Source: an uncultured Flavobacteriaceae bacterium
GTDB lineage: Bacteria > Bacteroidota > Bacteroidia > Flavobacteriales > Flavobacteriaceae
Direction: 5' to 3'
NCBI GenBank assembly: GCA_943842245.1
Contig: CALTAJ010000002.1
Coordinates: forward strand, 186,001 to 250,000
DNA length: 64,000 nucleotides
In this document: positions 52,192 to 52,992 of the stretch, in pieces
Layout: each line of letters starts with the position of its first letter
Numbering within the stretch: the stretch's first letter is position 1
Position numbers and translations under genes: made by a program
Notes under the pieces: model-generated
The model's database searches: none
What the model saw: the letters and a program-made list of their open reading frames with translations, nothing else
Told to the model about the DNA's origin: nothing

Positions 52192-52635
52192 ATGAAAAAA
52201 TATTACTTACTAATCATATCATTTTTAATTCTTTCTTGTAAGGAAGAGGTTAAAAATAAAAATATTGTTTATTTATCACCTGATTGTGGATGTTGTCACG
52301 ACTGGATTTCACATATGGAAAGCAATAATTTTTCTTTAGAAAAAAATATGGAATCCAACATGTATGATGTAAAGATTAATGCTGGTCTTCCAATTGATTT
52401 AGCTTCTTGCCATACAGCTATAATTAATGGTTATTTTATAGAAGGACATGTCCCTGCAAATGATATAAAAAGATTAATCGAAGAAAATCCCAATGGCATA
52501 ATTGGTTTAACTGTTCCTGGTATGCCAGCAGGAATTAATGTCCCAGGAATGGAGGTTAATAATGATAATGCAAATTTTGACGTATTAGCAATCGATTCGG
52601 AAGGAAAATCAAGTGTTTGGGCACATTATGAGTAG
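52192..52635 (+). CDS. DUF411 metal-binding lipoprotein
   Basis: Lipoprotein SP ILSCKEE; SPDCGCCHDWISHME, SCHTAIINGYFIEGHVPANDIKRLI. Confidence 0.88.
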   Translation: MKKYYLLIISFLILSCKEEVKNKNIVYLSPDCGCCHDWISHMESNNFSLEKNMESNMYDVKINAGLPIDLASCHTAIINGYFIEGHVPANDIKRLIEENPNGIIGLTVPGMPAGINVPGMEVNNDNANFDVLAIDSEGKSSVWAHYE

Positions 52636-52766: not shown

Positions 52767-52856
52767 TTAGCAATCACAACTTGAGCAAGAACAAGGTTCG
52801 CAAATACAAGCAGAACAGTTATGTTCTAAACAAGGCACACATTCACAATTACACAC
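52767..52856 (-). CDS. Cys-rich metallothionein-like micro-protein (29 aa, 11 Cys), GTG start
   Basis: MCNCECVPCLEHNCSACICEPCSCSSCDC*; not in ORF track. Confidence 0.55.
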   Translation of the reverse strand: MCNCECVPCLEHNCSACICEPCSCSSCDC

Positions 52857-52992
52857 TATATCATATTTATCTTACTAAATTACAAAATGATTATTAGAGT
52901 TTGAATTAAGCGTAGTTTTAATACTAATGACTACTGAATTTAATAAATTTTTTATTGAAAATAATCCAAATCACAAGCCCTCACGAAAAATC

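Follow-up and report, generated by a model that had tools for sequence, protein, structure and literature searches.

A probable metallothionein-like micro-protein of Flavobacteriaceae with 11 fixed cysteines, and its relatives beside SigZ-like sigma factor genes

A short cysteine-dense gene converges on a DUF411 gene

The stretch of DNA analysed here (the window; 64,000 nucleotides from an uncultured Flavobacteriaceae bacterium, G+C content 31.9%) carries, at 52767..52856 on the minus strand, a gene for an 11-Cys metallothionein-like peptide with a GTG start and a TAA stop. Its translation, VCNCECVPCLEHNCSACICEPCSCSSCDC*, comprises 29 residues, of which 11 are cysteines, and both coordinates and translation agree with a sequence-only reading that had earlier described this minus-strand GTG open reading frame (ORF). 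An in-frame stop lies a few codons upstream, GTG is the sole usual start codon, and the nearest homologues start with ATG at the aligned position. The peptide contains a single histidine, which is not among the conserved positions. On the plus strand, a DUF411 gene (52192..52635; PF04214, E=6.7e-24) adjoins the peptide gene, as the earlier reading had also noted; the two genes converge, their stop codons lying about 130 bp apart, and are not shown to share a unit. The same reading had taken TAATTTAG, placed at about 52875-52882, for a TAnnTTTG-like promoter with one mismatch. The window contains 1602 such one-mismatch matches, where chance would give 1621; therefore, TAATTTAG provides no evidence of a promoter, and no recognisable promoter was found for the window copy.

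The peptide belongs to a conserved but patchy family

Homologues were searched for in 57 related genomes first and then in 38 genomes of the window's genus, 14 of which contain clear homologues. DNA identity between the window ORF and these genus members is 63-76%, versus 22-43% in the flanking 60 nt on each side. The family follows the spacing CxCxCx2Cx4Cx2CxCx2CxCx2CxC, in which the cysteines are fixed and the residues between them vary, and every cysteine of the window peptide falls at this spacing. A wider scan of a species-representative genome collection used a DNA pattern that required the first nine cysteines, and poly-Cys runs were filtered from this and the first viral pattern scan by demanding non-Cys spacers. 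After this filtering, at least 16 further family members were found among the matches listed, including members from Gelidibacter, Tenacibaculum, Polaribacter, Leptobacterium, Oceanihabitans and Winogradskyella, and cysteines 10 and 11 are kept in all 16 of them, though the pattern left both free. In a 27-sequence alignment the start methionine and the 11 cysteines are invariant with little else constant, and across 44 loci TGT and TGC both occur in every cysteine column, to the exclusion of other codons. Because part of the family set was picked by its cysteine spacing, the independent evidence for conservation lies in cysteines 10 and 11 and in the codon variation. The peptide is present in 15 of the 395 Flavobacteriales and 5 of the 397 Bacteroidota genomes sampled, and an occurrence this patchy in both genus and order indicates that the gene is dispensable.

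These data decide whether the ORF encodes anything at all. Its shortness, its GTG start and the databases without a match might suggest a non-functional chance ORF, but the cysteine positions are conserved, the cysteine codons differ only synonymously, and dinucleotide-preserving shuffles of the window reached at most 8 cysteines in 28 residues, compared with 11 in the real frame, with none of 200 shuffles reaching 9. Chance is thus ruled out by conservation and almost certainly does not account for the ORF, which, judged by this comparison, is a real gene. The earlier reading had been prepared to yield to unconserved cysteines or an unselected frame; the cysteine and codon data favour the ORF instead.

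The peptide is tiny and very cysteine-rich, with CxC/CxxC clusters at conserved spacing, features shared with the metallothionein class. Pfam, NCBIfam and PHROG models gave no match to it, nor did a search of solved structures with the family profile, and the family is absent from the open-access titles and abstracts returned by literature searches on metallothioneins with ECF sigma, SigZ, prohead protease or phage. The best explanation of these comparisons is that the window peptide and its relatives form an as yet undescribed family of metallothionein-like bacterial proteins of very small size; the earlier suggestion of a conserved micro-protein missed by annotation holds, with none of the tested models covering the family. 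In two genomes (loci L005 and L009), a 70-aa ORF is conserved on the strand of the peptide gene, at +131 to +344 after it; this ORF ends in SCGCC and has no Pfam or NCBIfam match. L026 (G003:C9) has only the C-terminal half of a peptide that is whole in L018 (G007:C8), apparently a truncated copy.

Relatives outside the genus pair the peptide with a SigZ-like sigma

Twenty-three complete and 3 truncated relative loci have a gene for a SigZ-like ECF sigma immediately after the peptide gene. The first set comprises 11 complete loci outside the genus in which the next gene on the same strand encodes an ECF sigma of ~180 aa, and three more outside-genus loci end just within the sigma gene; the order scan found the sigma downstream in 12 of 14 non-window loci, a set whose species may partly overlap with the first 11. 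Across 395 Flavobacteriales genomes, the 12 close homologues of this sigma (E<1e-60) reside in exactly the 12 genomes that have the gene pair, each of them next to the peptide gene. SigZ (TIGR02959/NF007215) is the top-scoring NCBIfam family for the partner sigma, with the protein of L112 above and that of L059 below the TIGR02959 cut-off, and the fold predicted for the partner agrees with that of ECF sigma factors (mean pLDDT 77.7, with lower confidence in the tail); best-scoring family and ECF fold together constitute its likeness to SigZ. The partner sigma has five invariant cysteines, four of which lie in its tail (CC...CxxC). A link between SigZ and a Cys-dense peptide is not reported in the open-access literature found. 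The copper-redox response of CorE runs through its Cys-rich C-terminal extension (PMC8999054). CorE (ECF238/ECF44) and the partner sigma are alike in being ECF sigmas with such an extension, yet the partner sigma is of a different group and its CC...CxxC tail is shorter; by analogy, CorE sensing can plausibly serve as a model for the SigZ tail.

A promoter-like motif, TGC[AG]TC-N17-GTCTA, lies upstream in 25 of the 26 sigma-linked peptide loci with a spacer of exactly 17, and the remaining locus (L038) is one base off in the second box. The GTCTA box is 24-26 nt from the ATG (64 in L148), and the motif is absent from peptide loci without the sigma. In 11 whole genomes, TGCATCTTTTT-N9-14-GTCTA has 11 matches, ten of them at the peptide-sigma operon and the 11th located 382 nt further upstream in G391, before a gene resembling the DUF3703 gene of L073; as a control, the reversed motif has zero matches in these genomes. 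A near-unique motif of this kind is what a dedicated autoregulated sigma would give, and we infer from it that autoregulation is probable. Hairpins between the peptide and sigma genes were found at most loci, a count made with no shuffle control, and are consistent with partial termination. As a separate observation, DUF3703-type genes lie directly upstream of the peptide gene in L056, L073, L155 and L158 (PF12487 was tested for L073 only), and that of L155 (in G391) has its own copy of TGCATC-N17-GTCTA.

The window copy is an orphan

The window's own genome encodes only generic ECF sigmas, none above the SigZ cut-off, and no sigma above that cut-off was found in genomes of the genus; the window and genus loci have neither the downstream sigma gene nor the TGCATC-N17-GTCTA motif of the operon. 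Because its genus is without this sigma, the window copy is an orphan. Among other members without the sigma, the next gene encodes an HbpS-like haem-degrading protein in L149 and L152 (PF03928 for L149), and a superoxide dismutase gene, assigned by eye, follows the peptide gene in L135; such neighbours hint at redox or metal stress.

Some genus copies appear mobile. In L002, L004 and L007, homology is confined to about 190-205 bp around the peptide gene and the loci are otherwise unrelated, the L007 copy comes after a tyrosine integrase-like gene, and the L016/L335 copy is near recombinase-like genes (both by eye). By sequence comparison, the peptide gene seems to be mobile in some relatives as a tiny cassette of ~190 bp; the window copy shows no signs of such mobility. 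The peptide gene of L004 is also situated between 42-nt direct repeats with 90% identity, which may represent a duplicated gene start.

Other cysteine-dense peptides adjoin SigZ-like genes in Bacteroidia

The association was examined in a sample of 33, comprising class-wide SigZ-like genes (30 genomes with matches) and three order-level loci, in which a short ORF within about 400 nt of the SigZ-like gene was counted as Cys-dense if it had at least 7 cysteines in 28 residues. Such an ORF is found on the same strand in 13 of 33 versus on the opposite strand in 2 of 33. Three of the 13 same-strand peptides belong to the 11-Cys family, and the ten others are different and stand before or after the sigma gene (e.g., L352 and L377). 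All 13 peptide-flanked sigmas have at least 4 tail cysteines, and the sigma of L353, with one tail cysteine, has no peptide. Since many Cys-tailed sigmas are without a peptide, the pairing of Cys-tailed SigZ with a Cys-dense peptide is a tendency, not a law. The ten peptides unlike the 11-Cys family adjoin SigZ-like genes of other Bacteroidia (L351, L352, L359, L361, L363, L364, L365, L369, L377 and L380); the five of them that were scanned (Pfam or NCBIfam) matched no family.

The 11-Cys module recurs in phage proteins

IMG/VR was scanned in full with a stricter pattern; together with the first viral scan, this identified the 11-Cys module in 32 contigs, representing 23 distinct modules. In annotated phages and plasmids, tblastn with the module found no match, probably owing to the low-complexity filter, so that this result does not speak for its absence there. 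Some are free-standing peptides, several of these in contigs of 120-480 kb, and others lie within head-maturation proteases of the ClpP-like (phrog_94), S49 (phrog_53, PF01343) and S78 (phrog_80, PF04586) types. Larger proteins contain the module internally or close to the C-terminus in L171, L179, L182, L218, L285, L286, L289 and L300; by profile, L171, L179 and L218 represent the three head-maturation protease families (ClpP-like, S78 and S49), and the L182 protein resembles S49 by eye. IMG/VR contigs can contain host DNA; such contamination cannot explain the protease fusions. Glycine is the third residue of the four-residue spacer in 18 of the 23 phage modules, a position left free in the pattern, and the same position is glycine in most bacterial family members. 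This shared residue favours common descent over chance spacing, although it is not a test of descent. In the phage proteins of L212, L294, L296, L307, L312 and L318, the module comes after an SFxxWLExK-like segment; the N-terminus of L312 matches DUF3008 (PF11450), and the others look alike. We take this segment to resemble the capsid-targeting leaders of T4-type internal proteins, and by this analogy the linked module might be packaged in the phage.

A cytosolic thiolate buffer is the best reading of the peptide

Given its cysteine pattern, the peptide is best read as a metallothionein-like cytosolic thiolate buffer; for the window copy, it is the conserved cysteine pattern alone that suggests such a role. 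None of the known metallothionein profiles tried matched the peptide, while SmtA and human controls matched; in particular, PF02069 (SmtA/BmtA) gave no match for the window peptide or its relatives (SmtA control, 4.5e-21). SmtA/BmtA and the 11-Cys peptide are both small, Cys-rich and presumably cytosolic metal-thiolate proteins, but the 11-Cys peptide is half as long and denser in cysteine, with a regular CxC/CxxC ladder. Short fungal copper metallothioneins of the Neurospora type have about 25-30 residues, CxC repeats and 7 cysteines. These are nearest to the peptide in size and texture, yet their spacing differs and the peptide has 11 cysteines rather than 7; no model in the Pfam set searched is matched by either.

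The observed set of a conserved frame and cysteine pattern, a gene pair, a near-unique promoter-like motif and hairpins can be joined into a mechanism whose inferred steps are metal binding, tail sensing, autoregulation and partial termination. Outside the genus, the peptide gene is in most relatives the first of a two-gene unit with the SigZ-like sigma, whose CC...CxxC tail would sense metal or thiol stress. The sigma would then bind TGCATC-N17-GTCTA ahead of its own operon, thereby turning on peptide expression, and the intergenic hairpins would hold the sigma at a lower level than the peptide. The peptide should stay cytosolic, because 29 residues leave no room for a signal sequence, and its 11 thiolates, spaced as CxC/CxxC, would bind and thereby buffer d10 ions, i.e., Cu(I), Zn(II) or Cd(II), in a small cluster. 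Since the sigma is absent from the window's genus, copies there would need expression from some other promoter. We consider it likely that the window ORF is an orphan of a metal-buffering metallothionein-like family that elsewhere occurs mostly in autoregulated units with a Cys-tailed SigZ.

Three alternatives were weighed against this reading. The sequence-only reading had envisaged a metal-homeostasis pair of a periplasmic DUF411 protein and a cytosolic thiolate buffer. The genes are adjacent in the window, and a Pseudomonas DUF411 member, PA4714, shows a response to copper stress (PMC6444534). DUF411 occurs in 12 of the 38 genus genomes, 9 of which also have the peptide (Fisher p=0.0026, a naive and optimistic value, as relatedness is uncorrected and the genomes with both are related); this genome-level co-occurrence may be real or reflect ancestry. 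However, the genes converge, and the synteny that the earlier reading proposed to check in relatives is absent: tblastn detected no DUF411 homologue beside any other peptide locus, within flanks of 1.5 kb on each side for most genus loci and loci of up to 8 kb elsewhere, so that conserved synteny for a DUF411-linked two-gene system is lacking. In the other eight genomes with both genes, DUF411 and the clear peptide copy are on different contigs or, in G009, ~630 kb apart; G003 encodes, in addition to its main copy, a divergent Cys peptide (L029) that lies about 13 kb from DUF411. A DUF411-peptide two-gene unit is not supported, and a functional pairing of the two is unlikely.

The order of genes in relatives, with the peptide ahead of the sigma gene and hairpins between them, would suit a leader rich in Cys codons, whose translation senses cysteine supply and attenuates the downstream sigma gene. 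Yet the window and genus copies have no controlled gene downstream, Cys-dense peptides come after the sigma in L351, L364, L369, L377 and L380, phages have the module fused into proteins, and codon sensing does not need fixed cysteine spacing; we regard such a leader as very unlikely. Small size, dense cysteine, patchy occurrence and apparent mobility might also befit a disulfide-rich secreted peptide, e.g., a bacteriocin, or the precursor of a modified peptide, but no leader or signal segment stands ahead of the first cysteine, the cysteine number is odd, the spacing is of the CxC type, and no consistent export or modification genes adjoin, making this origin highly improbable.

Implications

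The metallothionein-like reading can be extended, speculatively, to the phylum. SigZ proteins with a CC...CxC/CxxC tail could be metal or thiol switches for dispersed, unannotated metallothionein-like mini-proteins across Bacteroidota, with the 11-Cys module of phage head proteases placing metal-thiolate in the capsid, a broader picture that we hold to be possible and rather less than an even bet. The family adds a tiny bacterial metallothionein-like group outside the coverage of the tested annotation models. For the poorly understood SigZ group, it suggests a testable role, with one operon, one promoter, one product and a sensor possibly in the tail. That phage head proteases reuse the 11-Cys module is unexpected and poses the question of which role metal may have in the virion.
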